Positions 4,645 to 43,296 of a stretch of 64,000 bases of DNA are shown here, one piece after another. A model generated the notes under the pieces. That model was given only the letters and a program-made list of their open reading frames with translations, ran no database searches and had not been told where the DNA came from. This DNA comes from Odiellus spinosus. Lineage: Eukaryota > Arthropoda > Arachnida > Opiliones > Phalangiidae. Made by a program: the position numbers and the translations under genes. Each line of letters opens with the position of its first letter. The stretch's first letter is position 1. The stretch covers positions 8,496,504 through 8,560,503 of the forward strand of contig OY987239.1 in assembly GCA_963920705.1 (NCBI GenBank), written 5' to 3'.

Positions 4645-4686
4645 TTTTGAGGCCTGACATTGAAAAACTTTGTTGCAAATAATACG
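4645..4686 (+). promoter_or_regulatory. Putative 5' UTR after a splice acceptor
   Basis: A pyrimidine-rich stretch ending TTTTTCCAG at 4644 lies 42 nt upstream of the THAP start codon. It looks like a 3' splice site, so the messenger probably has an upstream leader exon or a trans-spliced leader. I could not identify the donor. Confidence 0.4.
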
Positions 4687-7425
4687 ATGGGTCGAAGATG
4701 CTGCGTACCTGGATGTTTCAATGCCACGAGAACTCCAGCATCCTCAGAAATACAATTTTATGATTTTCCAACTAAACCAGATCAGCGTAGAATTTGGATC
4801 GCTAACATGGGATGCTCACAGTTTAAGCTTTTTCCCTTTCAAAAAAAGGCTACAGTATGTTCTGTTCATTTCGCAGATGATGCCTTCGCTGGTTTTCGTG
4901 AAAATAACAAATTGCAACTTAAACTTAACGCTGTTCCAACCTTATTTCCGTTGCTAGCCATTGAACGTAAAGAACCGTGTGTAAATTTTGGACAGAAAAT
5001 GTTAAGTCACGCGGAGTTGCAAGCTATTATTGATGGTCAGCGTTTGCGAGAAGTAAAAAATAATTCATGCAAAAAACTGAACGATGTTTCTGAAATATTT
5101 GATAATGTTGAAAGCAAAAAGTCCAACTTGTCTGACAGTAATGCTCGTTTGAGAACTTATAGTAAGGTGTCATCTGAGCCCCAAACATCGCGTACAGAAT
5201 CTGGTAGCACACCGGAAGTTTTTGCTTGTTTGCAGGAAGCTTCAAATGCACCTGAGAAATACGCATGTTTGCAAAATGTTTTTATAGAGGAGACTGAGCG
5301 TGAAATGTTAAATAACATTAGTTCCGAAGCTCAAAATGAATCTATGCAAAATGATAATAACACTGTTTCTCAAGGAAATGGCAGTGCTTCGAAGGCTGGC
5401 GAAAATTCCAGCGACAATGGTGATGAAATGATAGACATTAACGAATATTTGCAATGCACGTTTCACGAAAGCCAAGCTGAGTTAAAAATGGAGTGTCTTC
5501 AAGATTCCGAAAACTCTGTAAAGGTTTACAATGAAATTGCTAACATAAATCAATACTTGCATAGCGAGTTGAGTAAAAACTGTCAGAGTGTTCAGGAAAT
5601 TGAAGCCCAAAATGAAAATGACGCGCCTGAAAGCTTTTCCTGCTTTCAAACAAATTTTAACGAAGTTCAGTCTATTAGCGAAGTTCATCTGGACGAGTTT
5701 TCGTTAATACAAAACTCTCTTTGCGAAGATAAATTGCCCCAAATATTAAGTTCAAATACAAGCGATGCAAAAACTATGCAACGACCTACAGCGAATATAC
5801 GTCTTCCTACTAAGCAAATTGGTCCTCGGACTGGAAAGATTTTGTCAAAGAAACAAATTGAAAATATGCGAACAAAAATTACATGGGCTATGAATAAAAC
5901 GCAACAAACTAATAATAAAATTGAAACATCGCTCGGAAAAAGTATGCGTCTTAATCAAAAAAAAGTTCGACCAGTTGAAAAATATCAGTGTATGCTAACG
6001 TCAGGCCTTGTTAGTAAAATCAAACTTAGCCCAGAATACGAACCGGTTCCTAGCACAAGTACAGCAATCCAAGTCGACAGGAATACCTACCCTAGTTCGT
6101 CCTCAGATAGTGATTTGGATGAAGAAAAATGCAACAATAATCCCGCACAATACAAATGCTTACAAAACGAGAAAGATGAAATATTTTTGTCTCGTCCATA
6201 TAAGGATAAATTTAAAAACATACCTAGTACAAGTTCAGTTATGGGAAACATATCTAGTACAAGTTCAGATATGGAAAACATACCTAGTACAAGTTCTGTT
6301 ATGGAAAACATACCTAGTACGAGTGCAGTTATTGAAAACATACCCGTTTATGACAGCTCCCAAGTTTTTTCTATGGAAAAAACTTTCAATAATGATGATT
6401 CAAACCTGAATGACAGATCACCGAGAGATACTACCAAATATTCGCAGTCTTTTGATTCTGATTTAGAGATTGAACAAAAATTAACCTTTGAACCGTTGCA
6501 AAGTTTGCCGACCCTAGAAGATGGACCATCGCATTTACGTTTCTATAAACCGCATGATATAATTCGTTACACTGGTTTTGCGTCTTTCAATCACTTGAAA
6601 GCTTTCTATAATCTACTAATACCAGAAGCGGAAGATCTTAAAGCCAAAGATTATGATCTCAGCGATGACGAATCGGAACAGTCTAAATTGGAATCAAAAA
6701 CGTTATCACATGTCGAAGAACTTATTATTGTAATGACTCGTTTACGATTGAATTTAGACGAAAATGTTCTAGCTGATATGTATAAAATTAGTCATAAATA
6801 CGTGGTTAAAGTTCTGTTAACGTGGATTCCACTCTTAGCCACGAAGTTAGAATATCTTCCTATATTTCCAAGTAGAAACGAAGTTGATCGTACTACTCCC
6901 GCAATAATTTTACAAACTTTCCCCCATCTTAGACTTCTAGTTAATTGTGTTGAATTTTTAGTGGAGGTTTCTAATAATTTAACTAGACTCCCTATGAAGC
7001 CGAAAAAGACTTGTAAAGCTGTTATCGCAATCTCCCCCATAAGTCGCGTTGTCTATTTTTCAAGGGTGGTTTCTGGTGATATTTCTGAAGATCAGTTAGT
7101 TACGGAGAGTGGGCTTCTTGATAAATTAGATGAAGGAGATTTGATTTTATCAGGAAGTAATTTGAAGTTAGTTAAGGAACTTGATGCGCGCAATATCACT
7201 CTAACTGTGCCTGATTTTTTAAGCACCCCCGACCATTTAGCGCCTATGGTTGATAAGCTTGATGTTGATGAAATTATGAGGTTGCATTTAAAAAAATCTC
7301 TTAAGAAAATGGGTGAGTTCAAGATTTTTAGTAGTGAAACTGCTATACCGTGTACTCTGACCCCAATCGTCGATGATATGTTTATCGTGTGTTGCCATTT
7401 GGCAAATTTCACCCATTCTTCATAG
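4687..7425 (+). CDS. THAP zinc-finger protein with inactive DDE-type transposase domain
   Basis: Single-exon 912-aa protein. The start is the ATG opening MGRRCCVPGC, the usual beginning of a THAP domain; the frame is open 27 nt further upstream but has no ATG there. Residues 1-85 form a C2CH THAP DNA-binding domain (Cys5/Cys10, then CSVHF and the closing AVPTLFP). Residues 90-640 are acidic, Ser/Asn-rich and low complexity, with an imperfect 11-residue repeat (ENIPSTSSVM) and scattered C-L-Q motifs. Residues about 680-735 resemble the helix-turn-helix preceding DDE_Tnp_4 domains, and 745-905 align with DDE_Tnp_4 (THAP-carrying Harbinger/IS4-like transposases: GISP, SGLLD, VPDFL-like signposts). 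By alignment to the family pattern the three catalytic acids are Asn753, Gly823 and Lys869. No flanking inverted repeats were found. I infer a domesticated DNA-binding protein. Polyadenylation signal AATAAA at 7502. Confidence 0.88.
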   Translation: MGRRCCVPGCFNATRTPASSEIQFYDFPTKPDQRRIWIANMGCSQFKLFPFQKKATVCSVHFADDAFAGFRENNKLQLKLNAVPTLFPLLAIERKEPCVNFGQKMLSHAELQAIIDGQRLREVKNNSCKKLNDVSEIFDNVESKKSNLSDSNARLRTYSKVSSEPQTSRTESGSTPEVFACLQEASNAPEKYACLQNVFIEETEREMLNNISSEAQNESMQNDNNTVSQGNGSASKAGENSSDNGDEMIDINEYLQCTFHESQAELKMECLQDSENSVKVYNEIANINQYLHSELSKNCQSVQEIEAQNENDAPESFSCFQTNFNEVQSISEVHLDEFSLIQNSLCEDKLPQILSSNTSDAKTMQRPTANIRLPTKQIGPRTGKILSKKQIENMRTKITWAMNKTQQTNNKIETSLGKSMRLNQKKVRPVEKYQCMLTSGLVSKIKLSPEYEPVPSTSTAIQVDRNTYPSSSSDSDLDEEKCNNNPAQYKCLQNEKDEIFLSRPYKDKFKNIPSTSSVMGNISSTSSDMENIPSTSSVMENIPSTSAVIENIPVYDSSQVFSMEKTFNNDDSNLNDRSPRDTTKYSQSFDSDLEIEQKLTFEPLQSLPTLEDGPSHLRFYKPHDIIRYTGFASFNHLKAFYNLLIPEAEDLKAKDYDLSDDESEQSKLESKTLSHVEELIIVMTRLRLNLDENVLADMYKISHKYVVKVLLTWIPLLATKLEYLPIFPSRNEVDRTTPAIILQTFPHLRLLVNCVEFLVEVSNNLTRLPMKPKKTCKAVIAISPISRVVYFSRVVSGDISEDQLVTESGLLDKLDEGDLILSGSNLKLVKELDARNITLTVPDFLSTPDHLAPMVDKLDVDEIMRLHLKKSLKKMGEFKIFSSETAIPCTLTPIVDDMFIVCCHLANFTHSS
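6217..6351 (+). repeat. 33-bp coding minisatellite inside the THAP gene
   Basis: About four imperfect 33-bp units, each encoding a variant of ENIPSTSSVM plus one residue (some units read ISSTSSDM or STSAVI). The period is a multiple of three, so the frame is kept. Confidence 0.85.
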
Positions 7426-17900: not shown

Positions 17901-20900
17901 CATTTTGGTAACCGGAGGCTTTAGCTATTGGACAGTATGGGATCATGTGCACAAGGGAGTGCTAATTGGCCGGATCTCTTTTTTTCCTAAATTCTAACGC
18001 ATGCGGCCCATACTCTTTCAAAGCAGATGACATAGTATGATTTTATAAAACAATTTTTGTCATATTTTGGCAATGCTTCAATATAAAAGTTATTATTTTT
18101 TCTTAAGTTTATGATAATGTAGATTTAGAAAAATCAAAAATGTGTTTCTTCAGTTTAATTTATCCTAGCTTATCCCTATTTTATTAGGGAGTTTTTTATA
18201 AAATTCTGGTAATAACGATGTGTTATCAAAATGCATGGTGTGCTTTTTGTTAGTCAACAACGGAGCTTGGCATTAGGAAACTCAGATGTTTCATTTAAAC
18301 TCTTGGGTTACTAACTGTTCATACCTATATGTATTTCCTTTTTGATCTTGCGCAATTATTGTATCTTCAGTGATGTCATTTCTTGACATGGAACGTAGAA
18401 TGTAGGCTATATTGTGACCCAATATTTGTTCCAACGTAAAGGATTCTACAATCGTGCGTCCATCTTTGTATAATTTGATATCTCCATGGTTTGGTCGAGT
18501 TACGATCTTGAAATTTTTATTCTCAGTATGCCCAGTTCTTGACCGATATTTTATAAGAAATCCCTTCTGATTGTTATCAAAATCCAACATTTGATCCACA
18601 TATAATTCATCAACGTTTTTTTCGCTTGTAATTATCCCATGAGGCTCCAATCTCTTCGTTAAGTCGAAACTAAAGAAATAATTCGGTAATTTATAGACAT
18701 TAAATTATTGCATCTTCGGTAATTTACCGGTGTTTTACAATGGTGAAAATAATTAAGTCTTTGCTACCATAACAGGGTGACCACAGTACCTATATTAATT
18801 TTACCTTTATTTTCAATGCGTTCAGTTTTTAAAGATTTTTTGAGAGTCATTGTCGTACAAGGAACAAAACTGAATAGGCACCAAAAGGAATAGATCCACT
18901 TTTGGAGAGCTATTCCATAGTTCCGTGGGCATTTGTAACCATATGGTAACGCTGGCCCAACTCATCTCTGATTGTTGGGGAAGGTCTTACGTCCCAGACT
19001 TTTTATAATATCTATCCATTTCTGCCAAAAGCTATGTTTTCCTTTAATTTCCTATAAATCGATTTCCTATTTTCCTAAGTTTGTGATGTGGTCACCCTGC
19101 CGTAGTATTTGGTAAATTAAAGTGACCAGAAAACCTGTTTTCAAACAAGTTAGGTTATTTGAAACAAACAATATATGTTTAAAATCAATATTTACCCCTC
19201 AAAAACATTTGTCAAAATTATTTAAAGCAACTAGCGGCTCAGGAGGAGCCCGTGTGATAGTCTCGTCCCTGATGCACGCCAAATATGATTGTTAAAGGCA
19301 AGAACTATTGGGACCCCCACATACACTTATACATCCCTCCCTTCTGCCTTTAGTAAGGTAAATTGTCCAGCTTAAAAAAATTTAGGAGATCTATAGCTGC
19401 CAGTTGCTCGCGAAAATGACAAAAACTAAGTTTATTTCGAAATCAACGTGTAGGTTCAGTTATTTCCAAAATTGATGTTTTTCAATTTTTTACAGTATTT
19501 TCTACCCTAAAAATCGTAACTAGAAATTCTTGAACCCAGGTTTTCTGTTAAATTACTAACATTTCTAGTCATTTGCACTCTAAAATTTAGATTACGTACC
19601 TGCCACTATTACGTTTAATATTTCCAAGAATCTTTACAAAGATCCTTATTTTATCCAATTCCTGATTTTGTAACTTTGAAATGACTTCAAAATTGTCTGT
19701 AGAATTGTGTGTGGGTATGGGACCACTTTGGTTGTAGGCAATACGAGCATTAACCAGATCCCAGTACGCAAAATCGGCAATGGCTACTCCAGGATCTCGC
19801 ATACTCTCCAATTGACCATAAACCGGCATTTTAGCCAATTCAAATTTTAGCGTTTCCAGATCTTTTATTTGTTCTTCAACATTGAGAATGTCTTCGTTTA
19901 AGATGGTATATCCGCCAACGAAGACCGAAATGATTGTTGATTTCAGGTTCGGTCTCTCGGGGTAGCTAATGTTGGACTCAGACTCAAAAATTATTTTAAA
20001 TGTAGCTGAAGAAGTGTTGCGAATACCATCACTGACTATGAATTCTATTTCTTCCGTCCCTGTTGTGTAGTTTGTCCTTAAGTATCTGAAATCGCCAAAA
20101 AACATTCTTATTGGGACCCCTGTGGGAAACAACTATGCCCACATATATCTTCATCACGCAGTATCTTCGTTTAAACATGTATTTGTTTCAACTTATCTTT
20201 ATTATGTATGGCATATTATTATTTGACATCTAACCCGTGCTTGCATATATGGCGAATGAATTACATGCACTTTACTGTGCCATAGTGCTATTTCGTGAAA
20301 CACTAAGGGAATTGTATTGTGAGAAATGCTGTTTAGGGAGCCGCTGTTTCAGGGAACACTACTGTGAGAAATGCTAGAGGAATTCCTGAATATTTAGCCA
20401 AAATAGCTGCAAAGTTGAGTGACGTTATCTATTTTGCCTTAAATTGGGCCTAATTAGCAAGGTACCTAATTAGCGAATCATCTATTTAATCCCATAATTT
20501 GGGCCTATTTTCCAATTCAAAACTTTATTTTACCTGACCAAATTGGAGTTAATATCTTCTTGAGAAAACTGACTGACAGAAACCGTTAGCGTCGTACTAC
20601 CTTCTAAAACCAAAACACCAAACTTGACAGTTCCTGGCGCGACGTGAAAGTTAATGAGGTTAGCTGGTGTGTCGTCATCAACCGCCAATAAATAAGACGA
20701 TGACAGGATGATTTGGGCATCACTGGGATCCGTATCATTGCCTTTCATAATTATTGGGTAATTACGAATCAAAACTGGCAACAAGTCGTCGATTGGTGTT
20801 ATTACAACGTTCAAAGTCTCAATTCTTTTAAAAACTCCGTCGTCGATGGTCAAATCGAAAGAATCTTTAAAATAAGTCAATTTTAGTTATGGTTAATGAC

Positions 20901-23900
20901 AAGAACCCATTAACAGAAAAAGAATGTGAAAAGGGATCTTATGTTTCGCTATATTACGTTCTCTGAAAAGAACTCAAGGGGATTCGAGATGTTGAAAGCC
21001 ACAAAACCATTCAACGTACCTTTAAAGTTCTCTGAATCATCGTGCTTATAGAAAGCCCTAACATTGAACGTCTCTATAGGCAAAATTCCTTCTAAGGGTG
21101 TAAAAGCTGTCCTTTGCGTAGCTGATGGTTGTGACATAACCAGAATGGCGCCAAAACGAGGTGGGGATGCCACGGAAACGAATACAGTGTCTGATGGGAA
21201 ATCTCGATCAGATACGGAAAAAATATCGGCGTGTATCATTGCCATAGCTCCCTCGTTTAAAGTAATATCTTTCTTCAGTGAGGTGATTGGGGGCTCGTCT
21301 GGAACCAGGACAATGGTGACCATATATGTTGTGACAGTTGAATTGTGTACGCCGTCTGACGCCGTTATCTGGAAGTAGTCGTATTCGGGCTCAAAGCCGC
21401 TGAAAATGGTTAAATTTGTATGAAGTGCAGGCCCTGATCATTTGTTTGTGGAACAGCATTGCTCTTAGAGCAACGCGTCCATGAAGCTATCTTTTACTAT
21501 AGACCCATAAAGAAAAATTTACTACGGTCAATGGAGTATCGTCAGAGCATTTTGGAAAATCAGTAATTTGATTGGTTTGCTTGACCTGGGGTGTTTACGT
21601 ATAGAAGTGTGTTTTTAGAAATTATATGAGAAATCGCAACTGACCAGTTTCTATTGTTTTTAGTCTGTCTAAATCGATTAAAAATAACTTGTTTCCAGAG
21701 TCTAGTATCCGTTTAAACAGAACCAAAAAAGGGGCAAGCCTATGCTATGGAGATATTCAAAATTTCTCATTTAAATTATGTGGTTTTTGCTTTCATGAAA
21801 GTTTTAGCATCCTGATGTTGTATTAAGTTTCAATATCTGAAAGCTCCTCATGAAAAGTTTTGCGACTTTAGCTATAATTTTCTAAAAATCCTAACTTAGC
21901 GATAAAAGGTGCAAATGTTTAACTTTATGTATTGACAAAATATTTAGTGACTCAGGTTGATTTCGTTATGAAACTATTCATTGGTCTCAATCAAGATTTT
22001 ACAAATGACTGGTGCACCCACTTGGCTAATACCATTCTTCTAGAAAGAATTCTAATATAGAAATGCCTGCTTACCTGTGATTCGCTTGAACATAGACAAT
22101 GTGTCTGTTAGCTAGATCGTATGTTGTAAAACGTTTTAACTGTCCATCCTCGACAATCCTCTCCGTTTCTTTGGTCGAGTTTTGTTTATTCCCTTTGACA
22201 TTGACTAAGAATCCCAGAGAAGGTTGCTTAACGACGAAACACGTCACGTTTTCGGGGTAAGTGTCTTCATCAATAACCGCGATGACCTCGTCCGAAAGCA
22301 CAACGTTGCCGCCCTCTTCAACCACTAAACTACCGTGAACTGATATCCTGGGAGCACGGTTCTCGACTGGTAGGATCACTATCCTTAGTTTCAGGACTGA
22401 CTGTTGCGTTGTCATGGATGGTACCGCTCTATCGCTCACGATGAAGGTTGCTGTGTCTGGGATAGATCTTGGCCCAATTTCAACTCCATTGTGAACATAC
22501 TCCACCTGTTAAAAAAATTCAAGTATAATAATGAGCGGTTGTACAGAAGCCACATTTATATACCTGTCCAAGTCTAACACTCTTTTGAGTGAACCTGGTG
22601 ACCCTTTTCTTGTTTTCTGTAAACCACCCATGAGTCGGTTCGTTAGTCAAAATAAAAATAAGTTCATTGTCCGTAGTGTCCACGTCTTTAGCTGCCAGGT
22701 ACTGCAGAAAAAATCATATGGTATATATGGTTTATGGTTATAGTAAACTTAAATCTGCGCAAACTGGTGTACCTCATCAGAGACAACCACCCGACTGTTT
22801 TCACGAACTTCCAGTCGATTCTTCAAACCACTTAACCACGTCGGCTGCTCGTCATCTAAGGGTTTAATGGCTACTTTCAAAGACGACGACACAAAGTGTT
22901 TTCCATCACTTAGCGCAAATACTATCTGATCTTCAAGCGTCTCCGAGCCATCATGAACGTATCTTTGATGGATGAATTGAACGTTATGTGGGATCAAGCG
23001 CACCCAAATTAGTGTGAATATACTTACTGCAATTGGAGTTTGCTTATTTCCTCTGTATATATAAGATCGCCCACTCTCAGAACACGTCCTTTTCTAAGCA
23101 AGGAGCCATGTAAGGGAACTGTCAGTATGCTCAGTTGAAGTTCACTTTCAGGAGTATCTTGGTCGTATAGTGAGATATCGTTTGAAGAAATGACTGTGTG
23201 GGAACCTTCCTCAGTTGTTAATTGGTTCAGAAGGAGAACTGGAGGCTGTAATCAAGATTTACTTTTGTGCCTAAACTCTTAAAATATTTTTATTGTTATT
23301 TAACTGCACCTGATTGTTTACTGGAAGTACAATGATGTTAAAATGTTCTTCTTGCGCGAATGGTGGGTTTTCACCATTTCGTGTGACGGAGAACGAGAAA
23401 CGAACTTTTAATGGGTAGATACCAATTTCGGAAATGGGTGGAACGTAGCCAACTTTTCGGTGATTTACTTGTTCTTGCGTGAAAGAGAACAGTTCTGGTA
23501 ATGCTCGGTTTTCTTCCAGTGATAGAGCGCTGTCTGCAGCAATAATCCTTCCACCTTCTAAAGAACGCAACAAACTCTGTCTTTAGGAGTAATAATTATA
23601 TTAATATAAAACTGTAAGTCAATTTTATCATTAAGTGTGGCAAATCTAGAATTTAGTGATTAAATATGAAGAAATTAATAAATATCAATCTTAAGGTCCA
23701 CAAATTTCCTTACCATTGGTTCTCAAAGAGTCTAAGACATGTGGAGAGTTTTTGATGGTGTACACTATGTCCCTTGGTCTGCATGACACACATTGATAGT
23801 GAAGCTTTCCTTTATCGAAGTAACCCAGTTCATTCTCTGGAGTAGACAAAGACAAGCTGCTGCTCAGTTCCTTTGCAGGTGGAATACGATTGTCAGTTTT

Positions 23901-26461
23901 GACAACTCTAATGTTGAAGAAATATGTCGGACTCTGATTTGGTGGTATGTTTGAGTCTTTTAGTATAAATTTGAACGAATCTTGACCTAACTGAAAACAA
24001 TGTGAAATTAATTTTGGGACAGATTAAATAGCTCCATAGATGGTTTGGAAAACACGTACGTGTTTGAGTAGCTAACTTTAGACTACCCTACATGGGGAAA
24101 TGCTCGTAAACCGACCCTTATAGACAAGTTTTCGATGTCTATATCTTACTCAATAGATGTCACTAAGCTTACCTGAGAGATGTCACTTAGCTTACGGGAG
24201 ATGTCACTAAGCTAATCTGAGAAATGTCACTAAGCTTACCTGAGAGATGTCACTTAGCTTACGGGAGATGTCACTAAGCTAATCTGAGAAATGTCACTAA
24301 GCTTCTCAAAACAGTGTTACCAAAAGGGCCTTGATACAAAACAACGTTACCATGAGAGCGAATTAGTTTTTTAAAGGGAGAATGCAACCTAACAACAATT
24401 GTTTTTTTTTATAGATTCCTTATCCGGGCAAGTTTTAAATTTATTTCTAGTTTAATACTTAAATTTTTTTTTTTTACTGTTGGATTGAAGGAATGAATAA
24501 AAAAACTCATTTTTTTAGGCCGGATTCTCCCTTTAATATAAAAAGCTGCTGTTCTGAGAGACATCCATGGCTTTTTGAATCTGCTGACCTACTCTCAAAC
24601 CGTTTGGTTAGGTTATACAAATGGGAAGGCCAGTTTACAATGTCCAATACATAGATAACTGAATATAAAGTTTAAATATAAAGCTGGTACCGATGGAAGT
24701 TAACTAACTTCAATTCCATTATGAATATAATGTAATAATCCGTTATCCACGTCTTGCTGAGAAAAATTGGTTAAAGATTGAGATTCCTGATGTTCAGACG
24801 AAACCTTCTTCACCAGTTGACCCAAATGAGGATTATCAACAATGACAAACAATAATTCATCTTCCGGTGTATCTTTATCGACTGACTTCAAATAGTTTGC
24901 GTCTAATTCGAAATGTGTTCCATTTTCAACTTCTATCTCTTTATTAATTAACAAAACTGGCGCGTCATCATCCACTGGTAAAATCGTGATTGGTAGTTTG
25001 CATTGTACCGAACTTTTACTGTCAAAGACTCTGAAATGAACCACATCTCGTTCTGTTTCCGTCCCATCGTGTTTATACACCACAATACCACTCGCCAGGT
25101 CGTCAGAGGTAAAGCTTAGCGTGGTACTGTTGTGCACTGACAGTTGGCCGTGTTTTAGTCCACCGTTGACGTTAATCTTGACTGGGGCTGCACTGGGATT
25201 GATTAGTTCCAAATTAGATTCGTCAATGATGGTAGATTGGCCTTCGAGAAGAATCAAGCTTTTGACCACGGATGCCCGTAGTATTTGAGTCGAAGATGGT
25301 TTAATTAATACGTGAAGAGTGACACGGTCACTAGCCAAGTATTCACCATCGAGTATGACTAAGTGAATCTCATAGCTGCTATTTGAGTCACTCTAAATGA
25401 AGAAAAAAGTTTTAAGAAAGGTGCTTTTAAATAAAAATAGTTACATTTACCTTTAACCGTGGTTGGTAAGCAATATCGAACTTTTCAATGTCAATCTGTC
25501 TGAATGAAAAAACTGGCTGACTTCTATCGGACAAGTGGACAAAGTATCCGTAACTAGTGTCTGGATCGGTCACGTTGAAAATCAAATGTTCCGACGGTGT
25601 CTCTTCATCCCGGGCCGACAGAACGTCGCCAGTTACTGGCGCCAGTATGTGGTCAGAGGCTTCGAGTAGAAGACGACTCACGAATGATGGTTTCGGTTGT
25701 AAATTGGGGAAGGCTGGTTCGATTTTCACACTGATGTAAACCCATTCTCGAACCAACTCTTTACCACTACGATCTTCGAAGAGTATTGCGACAAAATCTT
25801 TGTTGGGTGATGGAGGTTTCAAATGTTCGTATCTTAAACCGCTTTGCAAGAATGGATCACAACGTAATTTCAAAACATCAATTCTTTTTCGTTCTCGACC
25901 AGAGATAAGCTGTCCATATGCTGGCCAATCACTTTGAAAATGAGATACTTTCGCCCTGCAACTGTTCTTACGAGGTCCTGGTTTTAGTTCAATGACTGAA
26001 GAGTCAATTGGGTCAGATATGCCATAGAATTTCTTAACTCTTATGTTCTTTTTGATGGAAACCAGACTATAAGGGACATTTTGTACGAGGAATGTCAGGA
26101 CGAACGTGTTTTCGAATGTACCATTTGACGTGAAAAGGTAGACACGAAATTTAACCATGTCTCGACTTAAGATGGGCGAACCTAAATGTTCGTAAGTCAA
26201 AGTACCTTGCCGGAAAGCACAATCAAAGACGGTGGGTTCGAAAATACCCGCTCTTTGGTAGATTGGTTCGGTTGATATCATTTTCACTTTACAAGGATCT
26301 GATAAGTTTCCATGATTGATTTGTAAGTCACCCCTCGTTAATTCAACACTTCTGCCGATATTAACCGCAATATCTTTGGAAGTAATTTCTATTGGGCTTA
26401 GTTGGGCAGTTGCACGCGATATTATTAATGTCAATGAGATTATAATTTTACTTGTATCCAT
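14929..26461 (-). CDS. FREM1: FREM1-like basement-membrane protein, 18 coding exons
   Basis: Secreted extracellular-matrix protein of the Fras/Frem family, 1,896 aa by my model (human FREM1 is about 2,180). Exons in order: 26461-25451, 25392-24709, 23990-23714, 23557-23310, 23245-23028, 22962-22773, 22701-22564, 22505-22075, 21399-21020, 20864-20534, 20085-19600, 18669-18325, 17634-17432, 16476-16324, 16182-16109, 16052-15923, 15479-15312, 15152-14929. Every junction is GT-AG and all phases join without a stop; exon 15 is the least certain. The start ATG opens a signal peptide (MDTSKIIISLTLIISRATA). Exons 1-12 encode CSPG repeats recognised by YVHDGSET, YVHNGVE and YKHDDSEN followed by D-x-F-x-x-x-SDG. 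Exons 13-14 are a Calx-beta domain (YEVCENEG; LTLTNP). Exon 16 carries FVRCNGKSWLPW. Exons 17-18 are a C-type lectin fold (WSMAQFVC, YWIG, YICQ). FRAS1/FREM proteins form a sub-epithelial adhesion complex. No break is seen. Confidence 0.93.
15619..15829. mobile_element. TIR element (CCTGACTTGATTCGGG end) in a FREM1-like intron
   Basis: AACCTGACTTGATTCGGGTT at the left and GACAAGGTCCAAATCCAGGC near the right form the family's inverted ends. It lies in the intron between exons 16 and 17 of the FREM1-like gene. Confidence 0.65.
16620..16666 (-). mobile_element. Right-end fragment of the TTAA-family MITE
   Basis: Reads AAATCACTTTTTGTTGAGCA then GGTTGCAATTACCTCCCT and ends at TTAA (16667-16670). 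The left portion is lost. Confidence 0.6.
16685..16837 (-). mobile_element. MITE, CCCTTACC family, complete (TSD AG)
   Basis: Starts CCCTTACGATAAAAAAGTTA, ends with AAGACTAAC, a T-run and ATGGG, with AG on both sides. 153 bp, in the intron between FREM1-like exons 13 and 14. Confidence 0.9.
16971..17262 (+). mobile_element. Complete 292-bp MITE with 7-bp target duplication ACGTTAG
   Basis: Terminal inverted repeats of about 33 bp, starting CAAGAAGGATCAGATAAGGA and mirrored at the right as TCCTTATCTGATCCTTCTTG. ACGTTAG flanks the element on both sides (16964-16970, 17263-17269). The centre contains CTAGCTAGCG. A second complete copy in the opposite orientation is at 52354-52633. It lies in a FREM1-like intron. 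Confidence 0.95.
18773..19099. mobile_element. hAT-like nonautonomous element (CAGGGTGACCAC ends)
   Basis: CAGGGTGACCAC at the left and GTGGTCACCCTG at the right, with CCTATATT/TTTCCTATTTTCC-type sequence inside the ends. It lies in the FREM1-like intron between exons 11 and 12. The flanking target duplication is not clear. Confidence 0.75.
19226..19320 (-). mobile_element. Partial TTAA-type element (AGCAACTAGCGGCTC end)
   Basis: Follows TTAA at 19222-19225. AGCAACTAGCGGCTC then GATGCACGCCAAATATG match, in reverse, the right end of the complete copy at 50101-50499. The other end is absent. Confidence 0.7.
24136..24307. repeat. Higher-order tandem repeat in FREM1-like intron 2
   Basis: Seven or eight units of about 23 bp (GATGTCACTAAGCTTACCTG variants). 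Three unit types alternate in the same order twice (ACCTGAGA, ACGGGA, AATCTGAGAA endings), giving a secondary period of about 68 bp. Confidence 0.9.
24375..24532. mobile_element. Short internally deleted TTAA-family MITE
   Basis: Flanked by TTAA at 24371-24374 and 24533-24536. The left end AGGGAGAATGCAACCTAACA matches the 431-bp copy; the right end is CCGGATTCTCCCT. At 158 bp it keeps the arms but lacks the central block. It lies in FREM1-like intron 2. Confidence 0.85.
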
Positions 26462-26470
26462 TTTGTTGTG

Positions 26471-26480
26471 CCTGTAGTGA
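26471..26480 (-). promoter_or_regulatory. Putative splice acceptor before the FREM1-like start codon
   Basis: On the minus strand TTTCACTACAG precedes GCACAACAAAATGG, placing an acceptor-like site 9 nt before the ATG. This suggests a non-coding leader exon upstream (or a trans-spliced leader); the 26-bp satellite would then lie in the intron or outron. Confidence 0.4.
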
Positions 26481-27003
26481 AATAATCAGAAACGCAAACA
26501 GATTTTTGAAATGATTAGTAATGCAAACAGATTTTGTCATTTGAAATGTCAGAAATGCACATTTTTAAAATGATCAATAATGCGCACATTTTTTAAATGA
26601 ACAGACATTCGCACATTTTTAAATGAACAGAAATGCGCACCTTTTTAAAAGATCAAAAATGCGCACATTTTAAATGAACCGAAAGTTGCACATTTGAAAT
26701 GATTACAAATGCGCACATTTTAAAATGATCACAAATGCGCACATTTTGAAATGATCACAAATGCGTACATTTTGAAATGTTCACAAATGCGCACATTTTG
26801 AAATGTTCACAAATGAGCACATTTTGAAATGATCACAAATGCGCACATTTTGAAATGATCACAAATGCGCACATTTTGAAATGATCACAAATGCGCACAT
26901 TTTGAAATGATCACAAATGCGCACATTTTGAAATGATCACAATTGCGCACATTTTGAAATGATCAGAAATCCGCGCGTTTTAAATGATCAGAAATCTAAG
27001 CAT
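26481..27003. repeat. 26-bp satellite array next to the FREM1-like 5' end
   Basis: About twenty units with consensus AAATGATCACAAATGCGCAC followed by ATTTTG. Copies from about 26700 to 26960 are nearly identical; those nearest the gene are strongly diverged. Each unit contains two 6-bp palindromes, TGATCA and TGCGCA. Confidence 0.95.
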
Positions 27004-36360: not shown

Positions 36361-36397
36361 TCTCCTTCGTTGACGAAAGATAAGACCATTTGATAAG

Positions 36398-36493
36398 GTT
36401 TGTATTAAATCCTTCTCCGCAGCTTTTATACTTAAATGATATAATCTATATTACGTTGGAAGAAAAATATAATAAATCACCTTGTTGTTACAG
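36398..36493 (+). promoter_or_regulatory. 96-nt leader intron before the 992-aa gene
   Basis: GATAAG followed by GTTTGT, then TTGTTGTTACAG seven nt before the start codon. The equivalent arrangement, with similar exon sequence (GAAAGATAA...GATAAG), exists before the paralogue at 40620, which supports a real 5' UTR intron. Confidence 0.65.
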
Positions 36494-36500
36494 ACGCATA

Positions 36501-39479
36501 ATGGCCTCCAAGTTTTCAAAAAAAGATTCTGAGGTCGTTCAAGATTTATTACGCGATGAAGATCTAAGATTATTTCTTACTGAACTTTCAAATGTTTGTT
36601 ACGCATCGAGGCACTTCAGATTTATGCCTAAGGATGTAGCGTGTCAATTATTGGAAAGTAGAGCCTCTGAAGAACTTGGAACATTAATGAATGGAATCGC
36701 AAAAAATTTTAGAAAAGCGTTCAACGCAATTGTTGCGGAGCATCCTGAATTTCTCCCATTACTAGAAAGAAATCAAACTATATATATACCATATCGAACC
36801 AAACGTGAGGTAGATATATATTTGGATGATGGTACCGTTAGTTCGTACAGCGTATACGATCTCGCAAAGGCCTTTTTAGAATGTGAGAAAATGATTCTTA
36901 GATCAGTTTACTATCATTTCGAGGAAATAATTCGTTTAAATGATGGTTCTGAAGTTAAAATGAATGAAAATATGAAGAATTTAGGTGGTGGGGTATCGAG
37001 ACAGTTGAAGAATATGTATGGATTCAACGGCGAAAAGAAGTTGTTCAAGATTCATAACTCTGTTTTCACGCTGAGAAAGGTTGAAGGAATTAATTACGTG
37101 ATGTTAGTACCTGGAGTTGACATTGAGAATTATATTGACTCGCTCGAAGATTTGCAAGACAGAGATACAGAGGCTGTGCAGTATTTTGTTTCTGAAATCC
37201 GTAAGGTTGCGCGTGAAAGCGGTGTTATTTTCATAAAAGAATTTAACGAAATTGTCGACTTGGCCCCTGAAAAATGGATAAGTGAAATTAGTTCGAAGCA
37301 CACTGATTTAAGTAGTTTTTTTCAGACATATTCTGCAATTTTTCAACCCATTCAGAGTCTTTCAAATTCGAAAAATTTGATTGTAATTGGGTATTACATC
37401 CCTTGCGATGCAAAAATCAATAAGATTTTAGATCAGGGTACTGGTAGGACATCGGATGTTAAGAATTGTGGAATTCCACCAAGAGAGGTTAAAATTTTGC
37501 ACAAACATGTTAAACGCACAATTTACCGTGAAATTAAATGTCTTCAAAGTGTGTATGATCATATGTTTAACATTGCAGTTTTATGGCATGGGAAATTTTT
37601 TATAAGAGACTTTGAAAATTACATAAAAAATACCGCTAGGGTTTGTGAAAGAAACATTCTTAGTATAGGAGCTGAGGAATATTTGAAAATCCATTCAAAA
37701 ATATTTCCACTTCATTCCATCAACTTGTATAATTTAGTTTCAGAATCGGAATTCAAAAATTATATCTCAGAATTAAATTACAAAGCTCGTGTCATTTTTA
37801 GTGACGAGATTAGTAAACATAAAGAGTCCGTTCAAGAAACAAAACCTTTAAAATCTAGCGAGGTTTCAAACACGGTAGATTTGCAAAACGTAGAAACAGC
37901 AAATGTAAAATACTTTGCGTCTGAAATCCGAAAGGTTGCGCGTGATAGTGGTGTCATCTTTATAGATGAATTTGATGAAATAGTTGATTGGGCCCCTGAA
38001 AAATTTATAGTTGAAATTACATCGAAGTACAATGATGTAAGTAATTTCTTTCAGCAATATTCTGAAATTTTTCGACCCATTCATAGTCTTTCAAATCAAA
38101 AAAATTTGATTGTAATCGGGTATTACATCCCTAGCGATGCAAAAATACGTGAAATTTTAAATAATGGTACGGGTAGCGAATCAAATGTTACTAACTGTGG
38201 AATTCCACCGGGAGATGTTAGGATATTGCATAATCACGTTAAACGCAATATTTTACTTGAAAAGGATTGCCTTGAACATCTTTATGAACACATGTCATCC
38301 GTTGCAGTTGCATATGGGAACTTTTCTACTGGCGAGTTTCAAGATTACTTGGATAATTCTGCTAGGGATTCTGAACGAAACTTTATCCTTAAAATAGGGG
38401 TAGAGGAATTTTTAAAAATACATTCCAAATTTTTTCCACCCCAATCCATCGGCTTGTATAGTTTAGTTTCAAGATCAGAGTTCAAAAATTATATCACGGA
38501 AATGAAATACAAAGCCCGTAAGATCTTTAGTGACGAAATTAATAAACTAACAGAGCCATTTGAAGGAACCGAAATTGTTGCTAACAATTTAAAATCTAGT
38601 GGGACTGATGTAGAAATAGTGGCTATTAGATACTTAGCGTTTCAAATCCATAAGATTGCGGGAGAAACTGGAATTATTTTTACCGACGAATTACACAAAA
38701 TTATTAATAAGGTCCCTGAAATGTTAAAGTGCGAAATTGATTCAAAGTACGGTGATTTTAGTAATTTTATCCCCGAATACTTGTCAGTTTTTCAACCCAT
38801 ATTTGGCTCTTCAATTCAATCAAGTACTTTTGACACTATCGCGTATTGCCTCGCTAGGGATGAAAGAATCACCGAAATTTTAAGCCTTGATTCCTGTAAG
38901 TCGGGTATTCATTTTGTAATCTTATCAGAAGCTAAAATATTGCACACTGGTGTTTTACGTTTGACGAAGTGCCTTGAACATATTTATCAGCGTATGATAC
39001 CTAAAACGGATAGCGTCTTTACTTTAGTTCAGTTTCAAAAATATATTGACACACGAGCGTCTAAAAATGAAAAAAAACTCGTTCGCGATCAGGGATATGA
39101 AGAATTTTTGAAAAGTCATTCTATCATTTTTCCAGTTAAGTTTGATGGTCAAAATTACTACGGCAGAGTTACGCAAGACAAATTTGATTCTTGTATCGTT
39201 GAATTAATGCATTATGTTCGTAAGGTCATTAAAGAAGAGGTTAAGAAACTGAATGAAAACCAATTGAGTATCGATAATCAATTGACTTTCAATGAATATA
39301 TTTATAAGGAGCAGAATGAAGGTTACGTTGAATTTATCGCTAATGTTCTTAACAACATGCCTCATCCTGAACTGAACTTTTTAACATCATTGCAAACGGC
39401 TTTAGGTCCTTTTCATCGCAAAGTTCAAACTGATTCAACTGGACTTGTATCGTCCGTTTATTTGTATCATTTAACGTGA
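36501..39479 (+). CDS. Repeat-module protein A (putative winged-helix-like array), 992 aa
   Basis: Family not recognised with confidence. I chose the ATG opening MASKFSKKDSE because a splice acceptor ends 7 nt before it and the paralogue starts MASKSSMKDS at the same place; the frame runs 111 nt further upstream but lacks an ATG. After an N-terminal module (about 20-100) come three tandem repeats of roughly 240 aa starting near residues 224, 467 and 705. Each has an 'a' half (YF.SEIRKVAR..GVIF..EF...FFQ.YS.IF.P) and a 'b' half starting near 346, 589 and 823 (SEFKNYISE; EEFLKIHSKFFP). Helix-rich stretches closing on a short F-L-x-x-H-x-x-IF strand recall the winged-helix modules of Egalitarian-type RNA-localisation proteins; this is a fold-level guess. 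A C-terminal tail ends GLVSSVYLYHLT. There is no signal peptide or membrane segment. AATAAA at 39521. Confidence 0.85.
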   Translation: MASKFSKKDSEVVQDLLRDEDLRLFLTELSNVCYASRHFRFMPKDVACQLLESRASEELGTLMNGIAKNFRKAFNAIVAEHPEFLPLLERNQTIYIPYRTKREVDIYLDDGTVSSYSVYDLAKAFLECEKMILRSVYYHFEEIIRLNDGSEVKMNENMKNLGGGVSRQLKNMYGFNGEKKLFKIHNSVFTLRKVEGINYVMLVPGVDIENYIDSLEDLQDRDTEAVQYFVSEIRKVARESGVIFIKEFNEIVDLAPEKWISEISSKHTDLSSFFQTYSAIFQPIQSLSNSKNLIVIGYYIPCDAKINKILDQGTGRTSDVKNCGIPPREVKILHKHVKRTIYREIKCLQSVYDHMFNIAVLWHGKFFIRDFENYIKNTARVCERNILSIGAEEYLKIHSKIFPLHSINLYNLVSESEFKNYISELNYKARVIFSDEISKHKESVQETKPLKSSEVSNTVDLQNVETANVKYFASEIRKVARDSGVIFIDEFDEIVDWAPEKFIVEITSKYNDVSNFFQQYSEIFRPIHSLSNQKNLIVIGYYIPSDAKIREILNNGTGSESNVTNCGIPPGDVRILHNHVKRNILLEKDCLEHLYEHMSSVAVAYGNFSTGEFQDYLDNSARDSERNFILKIGVEEFLKIHSKFFPPQSIGLYSLVSRSEFKNYITEMKYKARKIFSDEINKLTEPFEGTEIVANNLKSSGTDVEIVAIRYLAFQIHKIAGETGIIFTDELHKIINKVPEMLKCEIDSKYGDFSNFIPEYLSVFQPIFGSSIQSSTFDTIAYCLARDERITEILSLDSCKSGIHFVILSEAKILHTGVLRLTKCLEHIYQRMIPKTDSVFTLVQFQKYIDTRASKNEKKLVRDQGYEEFLKSHSIIFPVKFDGQNYYGRVTQDKFDSCIVELMHYVRKVIKEEVKKLNENQLSIDNQLTFNEYIYKEQNEGYVEFIANVLNNMPHPELNFLTSLQTALGPFHRKVQTDSTGLVSSVYLYHLT
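37170..39220 (+). repeat. Three tandem ~240-aa coding repeats in gene A
   Basis: Repeats begin near 37170, 37899 and 38613. The first two are strikingly alike at DNA level (both contain CTGAAATCCG, GGTTGCGCGTGA and AATTTGATTGTAAT), whereas the third is much more diverged. This points to a recent internal duplication or gene conversion. Confidence 0.88.
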
Positions 39480-39520
39480 GAGTATCATAGATATTGTATT
39501 TTCTTTTGTTTATTATGATC

Positions 39521-39526
39521 AATAAA
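39521..39526 (+). terminator. Polyadenylation signal of gene A
   Basis: AATAAA 42 nt after the stop codon. Confidence 0.6.
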
Positions 39527-40521
39527 TCTTATATCACTTTTATTGCTCTCAAGAGAAACGTTATTTTTCCACCACTCATGCTTGACGCATGTTCTTACTT
39601 TATTTTTGACACCCCTAAAATTTTAGATTTCTAATGCCCTAAAACTTGATTTTAAGAGAAAATCTGAAAGAGTTATTGCCAAAAACCATATTCGAAAAAG
39701 TTAGTAAATTTTTCCCCTTACAGTTTTAAATCCAAAAATATCGCTGCGCTGTCAAAAACTTGAATGTTTCGCGTAACGAGACCCTATTATCTAAGATTTG
39801 TATATTGCTTTTCACAATTAGAGTTGGAACAACCAAACCGGGAAGGGGCAGAGCTCAAAGAAACTCTTAACGGTTTCATGCGGGTTCAGTATTTAAAATT
39901 CCACTGAGCCGTGCGTGGCTATCGCGTTTGTGAGCAAGTACTTCCCATATAGTTGGAAAATATCATTTTTAAAAGAATTTTTTGCCGAAATTTGACTTGC
40001 AAAATCCTTTATTTGAGATAATTTTAGTACTATATTATCCCAAAAAACCTAATTTTGTGTCCTGTATAATCGTATATTTTGGAAAAAATAATCCTATATT
40101 TCCTATAAGGAATTGAAATTTATGGCTGGGCTCCCTGATTTTTACATAAGCGTAACGTAGAATAGCGAATGAAATAATTTCGCTGTAAAATATTTCGTAG
40201 CTGATAAGCTGCACTAGATTCCTACTGTCTTCCAGCCCTTTTTACGTGCAATAAGTTTTAGTTTTATATTGCATAGAAAGGCTGTTAGAATATTTTTGGA
40301 GGGTTTTAGCTTTGTAGTTAGCGTCAGCACGTAGTCGCTAGTAAAGTTTCTGGTTTTAGTCTTAAAATATCATCCAAAAAGATTGTTTTTGGTGCATTTA
40401 ACTTCTTTGACATTCTCTTGTAGTCGTAAGTACTATAGCGACAAACAGGAAAATCGCATACAATATAAAAATATTCCCTTTATATCTACCGTTGGTGAAA
40501 GATAACACTCTGCTAGATAAG
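39527..40521. other. Intergenic spacer between the two paralogues
   Basis: From about 39775 to 40140 it holds a repeat shared with 14030-14580 (ACCCTATTATCTAAGATTTG at one end, AATCCTATATTTCCTATAAG near the other). The stretch just before 40521 resembles the leader exon of gene A. Confidence 0.5.
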
Positions 40522-40614
40522 GTTAGTATTAATACCTTCTCTAAAACTTTTCTAAAAATGATAATTCTAAATTACGTTGGAAAATATAATGAACTAAATC
40601 ACATGTCATTACAG
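40522..40614 (+). promoter_or_regulatory. 93-nt leader intron before the 655-aa gene
   Basis: GATAAG followed by GTTAGT, ending TGTCATTACAG five nt before the ATG. Same position and nearly the same length as in gene A. Confidence 0.65.
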
Positions 40615-40619
40615 ATACA

Positions 40620-42587
40620 ATGGCCTCTAAATCGTCTATGAAAGATTCCAACGTTCAAGAACTATCGAACGAGGAAGGAGAACGGTTATTTCTTATGGAG
40701 CTCTCAGAAGTGTGCTATGTACCAGAAACATCATTCAGATTTATTCGTAGAGACGTAGTTGGTCAACTGTTAATAGGCGGAACACTCTCTAGAAATTTAA
40801 ATCTCAGAGCTTATATGAAACAAATTTGTTCAAATCCTTGGACAGCGTTTGACACGATTGTCAAAAAATATTCAGACTTATTTCCATATCTTGAAATAAA
40901 TGAGACAATTTTCTTGCCGATTCGAACCAAATGTGAGATTCAGAGTTATTTTGACTCTGGTATTGCAGGCATTAGTACTTGTAACATAATCGACCTCGCA
41001 AGTGCGTTTTTTGATAATGAAATAATCGTGATTAGGTCAATTTGCGTTAATTTTGAGAGAATTATGCTTAAAAATCTCGCATCTGAAGTGAAGTCTAACC
41101 AAATTAAGAACGTAATTTGTGAAATACCAAAATTATTTGTTTGTATGTACGGCTTTGGGTCAGCTGAAAACATAATTCTTGCGACATTCAGAGACATTTT
41201 CGTTCAGAAAATGGGTAATGGTACTGAGGGAGCAGCTTATGTAAGCTTAAGGCCTGGACTTAACATTGAAAAATATATTGAATGTATGAATCTTGCCAAG
41301 GTGCAAAAATTGGAGAACGTAATTGTTAAATACCTTGTGTACGAAATGCGCAAAGTAGCTGGTGAAAGTGGAATTATTTTTGGTGACGAAATTGCCAAAA
41401 TAATTAATAGGATTCCTGAAAAATTATACTTAGAAATTTGTTCAAAGTATGGTTGTGTAAGAAATATCGTTTTTAAATACACGACCATTTTTCAGCCTAT
41501 TAGTAAAAATTCAAAACTAAAAAAAAAATTACAATTTGCGTATTACCTACCTTGCGATGACGAAACGCTTGATTCTAGTAAGTTATCTAAGGCTATTCCT
41601 CGCGAAATTCCACCGAAACAAGTTCTGATGCTGCACGAACATTTTTTAAACGAAACTACGTGTCTTGAACATATCTACAAGAGTATGTTACCTCAAATCG
41701 ACAGCCAGTTTACTTTAACTCAATTTGAAAAATATTTGAGAACGCGTGCTGGAAAATATGTAAAAAAATTAGTTTTCAGTTTTGGCATTGAGAAGTATTT
41801 AAAAATTCATTTAAAAATTTTCCCAGTAAAATATGGAGCGCAAAACTTGTATGGCAGAGTTTCACAGAGTGAATTTCATTCTTATTTAGATAACAAAGAA
41901 CGTATGATCTTTAGTGATGAGATTAAGAAACTAGCTGAGGCTGATGAAAAAGCTACAAACGAAGTTGATAGTCTAAAAGTTACAGCTTTGCCCAAAATTG
42001 CTAAGATATTGAACGTAGAGAAAAACCTACCTGCACGGAAAGTCGCCAAGAAATTGAACACATGTTCAAAATTAAGTCTGGAGTACGCAATACTTGATCG
42101 CATTTACGCGCATATGCTTCCTAACATCGATGAACATTTCACTTTAGCTCAGTTTAGAAAATTTGTCAAAACGCTAGTTGATGAAGAGGAAAAGAATTTC
42201 ATTCAAAGTTTGGGCTATGAAAATTTTTTGAAGCGTCATTTGAAAATTTTTCCACTTCAGTGGGAGAGCAACGGGAGTAAATTTTACTGTAGAGTTTCTC
42301 AGAGTAAATTTATGAATTATGTATCAGAATTTACAGTTTCTAACGATGAGAAAAAGGGACTAACCCAACTGATTCCAAAACCTATTGGTGTTAAAAACCA
42401 ATTAACATTCAATGAATGCATTTATATGAATAACGATGAAAGTTACGTAGATTTTCTGGCTAGTTTGCTGAAAAATCAACCTGATAGGGAGCTAAGATTT
42501 CTAACGTCTCCGTCAGATTCAATCAATCGTCAAGTTCAGACCCACTCGTCTGGACTTGTCTCCTCCGTGTTTTTGTACCCTATTTAA
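40620..42587 (+). CDS. Repeat-module protein B, tandem paralogue of A, 655 aa
   Basis: Clear paralogue of the gene 1.1 kb upstream: same MASK start, same N-terminal module (LFLMELSEVCY versus LFLTELSNVCY), same leader intron and same C-terminal tail (LTFNECIYM; GLVSSVFLYPI). The architecture is shorter: N-module, one 'a' half near residue 233 (YEMRKVAGESGIIF), one 'b' half near 348 (CLEHIYKSM; YLKIHLKIFPV) and a second 'b' half near 490 (ILDRIYAHM; FLKRHLKIFPL) without an intervening 'a'. The spacer between the two 'b' halves is Lys/Ala-rich. No catalytic motif, signal peptide or membrane helix. The function is unknown; protein or RNA binding is a guess from the repetitive helical pattern. 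A transposon begins only about 35 nt after the stop codon. Confidence 0.85.
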   Translation: MASKSSMKDSNVQELSNEEGERLFLMELSEVCYVPETSFRFIRRDVVGQLLIGGTLSRNLNLRAYMKQICSNPWTAFDTIVKKYSDLFPYLEINETIFLPIRTKCEIQSYFDSGIAGISTCNIIDLASAFFDNEIIVIRSICVNFERIMLKNLASEVKSNQIKNVICEIPKLFVCMYGFGSAENIILATFRDIFVQKMGNGTEGAAYVSLRPGLNIEKYIECMNLAKVQKLENVIVKYLVYEMRKVAGESGIIFGDEIAKIINRIPEKLYLEICSKYGCVRNIVFKYTTIFQPISKNSKLKKKLQFAYYLPCDDETLDSSKLSKAIPREIPPKQVLMLHEHFLNETTCLEHIYKSMLPQIDSQFTLTQFEKYLRTRAGKYVKKLVFSFGIEKYLKIHLKIFPVKYGAQNLYGRVSQSEFHSYLDNKERMIFSDEIKKLAEADEKATNEVDSLKVTALPKIAKILNVEKNLPARKVAKKLNTCSKLSLEYAILDRIYAHMLPNIDEHFTLAQFRKFVKTLVDEEEKNFIQSLGYENFLKRHLKIFPLQWESNGSKFYCRVSQSKFMNYVSEFTVSNDEKKGLTQLIPKPIGVKNQLTFNECIYMNNDESYVDFLASLLKNQPDRELRFLTSPSDSINRQVQTHSSGLVSSVFLYPI

Positions 42588-42971: not shown

Positions 42972-43157
42972 CCCTTGCGGAAAAAAGTCTGATCTGAAGA
43001 GGGCTTCAAGAACACTACAAAAGTCTTGGGGAAGTCTTTAAGACTTCCCCAAGACTTATTGACATAATGGAAGACTTCCCCAAGACCTCTTAAGACTACA
43101 TAAGACACCCGAAAGACTCTTACAAGACCTCTTAAGACTAACTTTTTTTGGTACGGG
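42972..43157 (-). mobile_element. MITE, CCCTTACC family
   Basis: Starts CCCTTGCGGAAAAAAGTCTG, ends ACTTTTTTTGGTACGGG. Flanking dinucleotides differ (GC/AC), so the target duplication is not preserved or my left boundary is off by a base. Confidence 0.85.
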
Positions 43158-43197
43158 ACATTTCAAACTGACGTGCATAAAACTTATCCCTTACCCA

Positions 43198-43296
43198 AAA
43201 AAGTTAAGAGGTCTTGGGGAAGTATTTGGGTATTGGGGTGTTGGGGAAGTCACTCTCGAGGACCTCTTCAGATCAGATTAAAGTTTTTCGGTAAGG
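43198..43296 (+). mobile_element. MITE, CCCTTACC family, short rearranged copy
   Basis: CCCTTACCCAAAAAAGTTAA to AAAGTTTTTCGGTAAGG, with a heavily deleted interior (99 bp). Confidence 0.8.

Follow-up and report, generated by a model that had tools for sequence, protein, structure and literature searches.

Tandem repeat-module genes of Odiellus spinosus are predicted to encode winged-helix arrays, possibly of Egalitarian type

Two adjacent genes built from the same modules

We analyzed a window of 64,000 nucleotides from Odiellus spinosus (Arachnida, Opiliones; GenBank assembly GCA_963920705.1, contig OY987239.1, positions 8,496,504 to 8,560,503), a term by which we mean the whole stretch. It contains two adjacent genes, here called A and B, and the subject of this work is the set of modules that they share and its possible relation to the winged-helix domains of Egalitarian (Egl), an mRNA-transport protein of the fly. 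Both genes run in the same direction and their frames contain no internal stop (Table 1). The lengths of 992 and 655 residues and the positions given by an earlier, sequence-only reading of the window proved exact, and its open frames are confirmed. Alignment also bore out the modules that it had described as common to the two proteins, that is, an N-terminal part, a and b modules and a C-terminal tail, as well as their order: the N-terminal part is followed by three a-b pairs in A and by a, b, b in B. Residues 1-465 of A align to gene B with 38% identity (E 1e-77), residues 704-919 of A share 44% identity with the a-b unit of B, and b3 with the tail of A shares 43% with b2 and the tail of B. 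The most alike repeat pair is found within gene A, where 143 of 218 aligned residues are identical between a1b1 and a2b2.

In all seven comparisons made, the ratio of nonsynonymous to synonymous substitution rates (dN/dS) was 0.30-0.57. These ratios are rough because dS, which ranged from 0.54 to 1.47, was around 1 or more in six of the seven; both reading frames look to be under constraint. Protein searches across the whole genome (443 Mb) revealed no further copies, counts from such searches being lower bounds, and the one extra match (E 4.7) is at chance level. Among viral contigs and bacterial and archaeal genomes, 108 and 148 stretches fitted the search pattern and none was confirmed as a relative.

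To characterize the N-terminal part, we used a b profile made from five b modules and an a profile made from four a modules, with 400 shuffles of A and B and 600 shuffled Egl domains as controls. With the b profile, N2 of A scored 16.8 bits, compared to 4.4 for the largest A or B shuffle and 7.4 for the largest shuffled Egl domain, and N2 of B scored 0.0 bits. With the a profile, N1 of B scored 7.4 bits, compared to at most 6.9 in shuffles, and N1 of A scored 0.8 bits. Since N2 of A and N1 of B exceed their shuffles, the N-terminal part is probably an old, diverged a+b pair, its b half being better supported than its a half. Gene A would therefore hold four a-b pairs, whereas gene B would hold two such pairs followed by a single b module, which probably makes about eight winged helices in A and five in B.

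Predicted fold of the modules

Two AlphaFold2 models were computed from alignments of window sequences alone (5 rows each). They cover six modules (N1, N2, a1, b1, a3, and b3), while a2, b2, and the modules of gene B are assigned by homology only. The mean predicted local distance difference test (pLDDT) scores of the models were 62.1 and 64.1. Five of the six modelled modules (N2, a1, b1, a3, and b3) present the order helix-strand-helix-helix-helix-strand-strand, with a first wing strand of just 2 residues in a1; N1 (pLDDT under 50) and the tail were not resolved. In these five modules the models support a winged helix-turn-helix (wHTH) fold with one added helix. The winged-helix topology that the sequence-only reading had put forward, with structure prediction as its check, is thus supported by the models. 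In both of them, long helices bridge the modules. The linker that joins a to b is conserved when a1b1 is compared with a2b2.

We then compared the models with known structures, counting Foldseek matches at E up to 10 and inspecting the best 50 of each list. For residues 1-465 of A, Egl-BicD chains appeared at ranks 3, 8, and 15 among the best 50 of 458 matches; for residues 702-992, they made up seven of the best 50 of 403 matches, including rank 1. With VIA-align, 1 of 50 entries was Egl-BicD for the first model and 8 of 50 for the second, and single Cdt1/MCM domains also superpose on modelled modules.

Table 1. Genes, modules and upstream blocks of the A/B pair (window coordinates)
Feature	Coordinates	Strand	Remarks
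Conserved upstream block of gene A	36368..36500	+	candidate leader intron ~36398-36493 (GT...AG), or promoter/leader
Gene A	36501..39479	+	992 codons + stop, single coding exon, N1-N2-(a,b)x3-tail
A N1, possibly diverged a-type winged helix	36555..36836	+	weak a-profile link seen for B N1 only; model not confident
A N2, diverged b-type winged helix	36837..37136	+	b profile 16.8 bits; wHTH topology in model, ten-residue mean pLDDT 51-80
A a1 winged helix	37149..37424	+	model, ten-residue mean pLDDT 59-85; weak PF23713 WH_Egal match
A b1 winged helix	37509..37784	+	model, ten-residue mean pLDDT 76-93
A a2 winged helix	37887..38144	+	by homology to a1 only
A b2 winged helix	38241..38510	+	by homology to b1 only
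A a3 winged helix	38607..38876	+	model, ten-residue mean pLDDT 51-83
A b3 winged helix	38955..39224	+	model, ten-residue mean pLDDT 68-91
A C-terminal tail	39246..39476	+	RKVQT...VYLY at 39417-39467 resembles Egalitarian dynein-light-chain site
Conserved upstream block of gene B	40490..40619	+	candidate leader intron ~40522-40614
Gene B	40620..42587	+	655 codons + stop, single coding exon, N1-N2-a-b-b-tail
B N1, possibly diverged a-type winged helix	40677..40955	+	a profile 7.4 bits, largest shuffle 6.9
B N2, homologue of A N2	40968..41285	+	alignment; b profile only 0.0 bits
B a module	41301..41567	+	homology to A a modules
B b1 module	41640..41903	+	homology to A b modules
B b2 module	42066..42341	+	homology to A b modules
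B C-terminal tail	42360..42584	+	RQVQT...VFLY at 42528-42578

Relation to Egalitarian

The same genome carries an ordinary Egalitarian. A 543-residue frame on contig C12 contains three WH_Egal domains and aligns with fly Egl at E 1.5e-98; downstream of it, another frame matches the C-terminal end of the fly protein, with the motif QTLSTGD[VI]VITK included. In two frames of this Egl the exonuclease domain PF01612 was found with scores of 20.3 and 18.6 bits, slightly short of its cut-off (23.6). Genes A and B therefore exist beside a normal Egl. On the same contig, a frame at 12095250-12098435 combines a WH_Egal domain, scoring 39.7 bits, with a weak match to the cold-shock domain (CSD; 20.4 bits, cut-off 27). 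The WH_Egal domain makes it comparable to A and B, from which it differs in that this domain is single, unrepeated, and accompanied by the CSD match.

In a Pfam scan, gene A matched WH_Egal (PF23713) at E 6.7e-4 and 20.6 bits, the best stretch being in a1, and when 10 of the 13 modules were scanned singly, a1 alone matched (14 bits). This is the family that the sequence-only reading had named beforehand. It had also suggested a LOTUS-type match, which the Pfam scans did not provide: no OST-HTH/LOTUS profile was listed for A, B, or the 10 modules, nor any Tudor or NYN domain. Likewise, no Cdt1 or MCM profile was listed for these sequences, and the scan of A and B, which admitted matches up to E 1, did not list PF01612. 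NCBIfam gave no match for either gene, and searches of PDB sequences gave none for gene A or for alignment A1. The alignment A2 retrieved three weak matches (E 0.12-1.7; a ribosomal protein, an effector, and a DUF364 protein), none of which we take as related.

Both tails close with RxVQTxS[TS]GLVSSV[YF]LY followed by a few more residues, and the pattern [KR]x[TVI]Q[TV] occurs once per protein, at the same place of the tail. Published LC8-binding motifs have R or K at position -3 and T, V, or I at position -1 (PMC3078936), which the RxVQT core of the tails fits. LC8-type strings were found 8 times among 52,029 residues of six-frame open reading frames, so such a string alone is weak evidence. 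We also compared the last 40 residues with the Egl motif of two species (this genome and fly); the observed score was reached by 10 of 2000 shuffles for A and 82 of 2000 for B, and a joint column shuffle of both tails reached it 29 times in 3000, in a motif-confined test that was chosen after the resemblance had been noticed. With the motif of this genome alone (5000 shuffles, last 40 residues), the score of A was reached by 53 or fewer shuffles and that of B by 540-1140. The tails weakly resemble the dynein-light-chain site of Egalitarian.

Several results weigh against a kinship with Egalitarian. The WH_Egal match of gene A stays under the PF23713 cut-off of 27 bits, and the Pfam scan gave no WH_Egal match at all for gene B. 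AAA was matched in A (E 0.005) and DUF5854 in the a module of B (E 0.003), both below their cut-offs, so matches as weak as that of WH_Egal can arise. When the genome was searched with PF23713, four places came up, and neither gene A nor gene B was among them. The sequence-only reading had called for a profile-profile search; an hhalign comparison of module groups with the genome's own Egl domains gave no clear separation from controls, N1 reaching a probability of 11 one way and 3.2 the other, and a, b, and N2 at most 2.5, while reversed or shuffled controls reached 6. A profile of the Egl domains scored at most 6.3 bits on any module, compared to 7.5 for the largest whole-protein shuffle. 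As for the tails, their scores against the whole Egl C-terminal frame were reached by 626 and 764 of 2000 shuffles, the Egl frame did not stand out from the 303 frames of the Egl locus when these were scored with a profile of the two tails, and the motif profile run over the whole proteins gave -2.6 bits for A and nothing for B. Finally, no PDB structure match of either model reaches E 0.001. Egl is among the best matches by fold and is the best one by weak sequence match, but a statistically secure homology was not reached. Because the descent of A and B from Egl is plausible on these comparisons but not demonstrated, we do not file them as Egalitarian members.

Conserved upstream blocks

The regions 36368-36508 and 40490-40627, which include the start of each gene, are 75% identical over 144 gapped columns, with a local score of 92 compared to at most 26 in 100 shuffles. 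They are more alike than the synonymous sites of the N-terminal coding part, where the differing proportion is 0.645, although the gapped alignment flatters the blocks somewhat. A leader intron, as had been claimed from the letters alone, would fit the GT...AG borders seen by eye and would be about 95 bases long. The conserved block is real; its identity as a leader intron is a matter of interpretation, and a conserved promoter or 5' leader would explain it equally well. The likeness of the two blocks may be due to gene conversion, to conservation of a promoter, or to a spliced leader. WGATAR sites number two in the A block and three in the B block, compared to 0.39 expected per 150 bases.

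Surroundings of the gene pair

The recognizable neighbors in the window are ordinary animal genes, namely a THAP/DDE-like frame, a Frem-type gene on the other strand, a RINGv protein, and a WDR36/Utp21 gene, and they offer no explanation of A and B. The tRNA and Rfam scans of the window returned nothing. The THAP frame (4651-7425, 924 residues) has an N-terminal THAP domain, weak C-terminal HTH_Tnp_4/DDE_Tnp_4 matches, and a 30-base tandem repeat at 6215-6344, and is probably transposase-derived. Exons of the Frem-type gene lie on the minus strand at 19590-26485, with Frem_N and Cadherin_3 matches in five of the six minus-strand frames scanned and a tandem array at 24155-24304. A 21-base dispersed repeat, AAGAGGTCTTGGGGAAGTCTT, was found with up to 3 mismatches at 33 places between 4372 and 55480, on both strands and often in pairs with a spacing of 42 bases; 100 shuffles gave a mean of 0.00. 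Its copies lie outside genes A and B, some of them just after gene B (43018-43226).

Discussion

We regard it as an evenly balanced proposition that A and B are a tandem-duplicated pair of Egalitarian-type winged-helix module arrays, composed largely of a-b pairs and ending in a short conserved tail. They perhaps represent fast-evolving Egalitarian-like arrays that act as RNA- or protein-binding adaptors. Such genes would most likely have been formed by repeated duplication of an a-b pair, their ancestor being either Egalitarian-like or a sister winged-helix protein, to give proteins with no recognizable exonuclease domain. Each a-b pair would be a semi-rigid unit like ED1-ED2 of Egl, and a chain with several pairs would offer multivalent contacts to RNA stem-loops or to protein partners. 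Binding of stem-loops in cis is one possible role for such a row of modules and scaffolding of proteins another, and the tail may bring in the dynein light chain LC8.

Egl domains are described as wHTH folds with one added helix that closely resemble the wHTH fold of LOTUS domains, and the linkers between them in fly Egl as flexible and poorly conserved (PMC13186709). In the fly, stem-loops are read by ED1 and ED2 from two Egl chains, each inserting helix 2 in a minor groove, together with ExoHD and XAD; the bases are contacted by His31, Cys35, Ser127, and Gln128 (PMC13186709). Two Egl molecules are needed for this recognition because the ED1-ED2 linker is too short. Going by the models, A and B would share with Egalitarian (Egl/Egal-1; PDB 9RVY and related entries) the tandem winged-helix modules with an extra helix, and their tails contain a stretch that weakly resembles its C-terminal dynein-light-chain motif. 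They differ in having about eight (A) or five (B) modules instead of three, a-b linkers that appear conserved and helix-rich, no exonuclease match, and scores below the PF23713 cut-off. In planarians, an Egalitarian-like protein has retained the modules at its N-terminus and the motif at its C-terminus, and its central region, of low identity (16.9%) to the exonuclease-like domain, lacks a clear active site (PMC12579938). There are three N-terminal modules in planarian egal-1 and in other Egalitarian-like proteins of spiralians, which, unlike A and B, can be recognized by BLAST against fly Egl (PMC12579938). LOTUS/OST-HTH proteins (Oskar, TDRD5/7, and Limkain) possess the wHTH fold that Egl domains resemble, but the Pfam scans listed no OST-HTH, Tudor, or NYN match for A and B. 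Searches of the open-licence PubMed Central (PMC) literature brought up no description of arrays of more than three Egl domains, which is no proof of their absence. The interpretation given by the sequence-only reading is supported in part, and what it had announced as an undescribed protein system is better seen as an unusual arrangement of domains that seem to be of a known kind.

Winged helices are common in tandem, and the Egl matches might reflect no more than this. The modules would then be of non-Egalitarian descent and belong to a lineage-specific multi-winged-helix scaffold or to a chromatin- or DNA-binding protein, a reading that we hold to be possible but rather doubtful. Single Cdt1 and MCM domains fit the models, but the Pfam scans list WH_Egal and neither of these families, Egl chains with two domains turn up repeatedly among the best Foldseek matches of the a3-b3 half, and the tail resembles the Egl C-terminal motif. 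It is very improbable, in our view, that A and B are orphan or decaying frames without function or an artefact of assembly or gene finding. The presence of only two copies, with no relative in the viral, bacterial, and archaeal collections scanned, would suit such an origin, but 992 and 655 open codons and the dN/dS ratios of all seven comparisons argue against it.

The modules could also have lost RNA binding and bind proteins, the tail holding LC8 for dimerization. The a modules of A are acidic (isoelectric point (pI) 4.8-5.0), its b2 has a pI of 5.9, and in an alignment made by eye the base-contacting helix-2 residues of ED1 and ED2 have no evident counterparts in A and B, as this reading would have it. 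However, A b1, A b3, B a, and B b1 are basic (pI 8.9-9.5), and the nucleic-acid contacts of wHTH domains vary in sequence, and we judge such a loss to be improbable. Because the module charges are mixed and counterparts of the Egl contact residues are not evident, the function of A and B is one that we infer.

If A and B are Egalitarian-type arrays, one could go further and see in them an unrecorded branch of Egalitarian-derived adaptors that dropped the exonuclease part and multiplied the Egl-domain pair. Stem-loop recognition would then take place within a single polypeptide, and an LC8-bound dimer would carry several RNAs or one RNA with multiple stems; we consider this extension unlikely, though less so than a loss of RNA binding. 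Egl-type domains have recently been shown to read double-stranded RNA (PMC13186709). Proteins composed almost wholly of such domains, in greater number and with the exonuclease part missing, would lend themselves naturally to testing what the domains do on their own and how an mRNA-transport adaptor can diversify.
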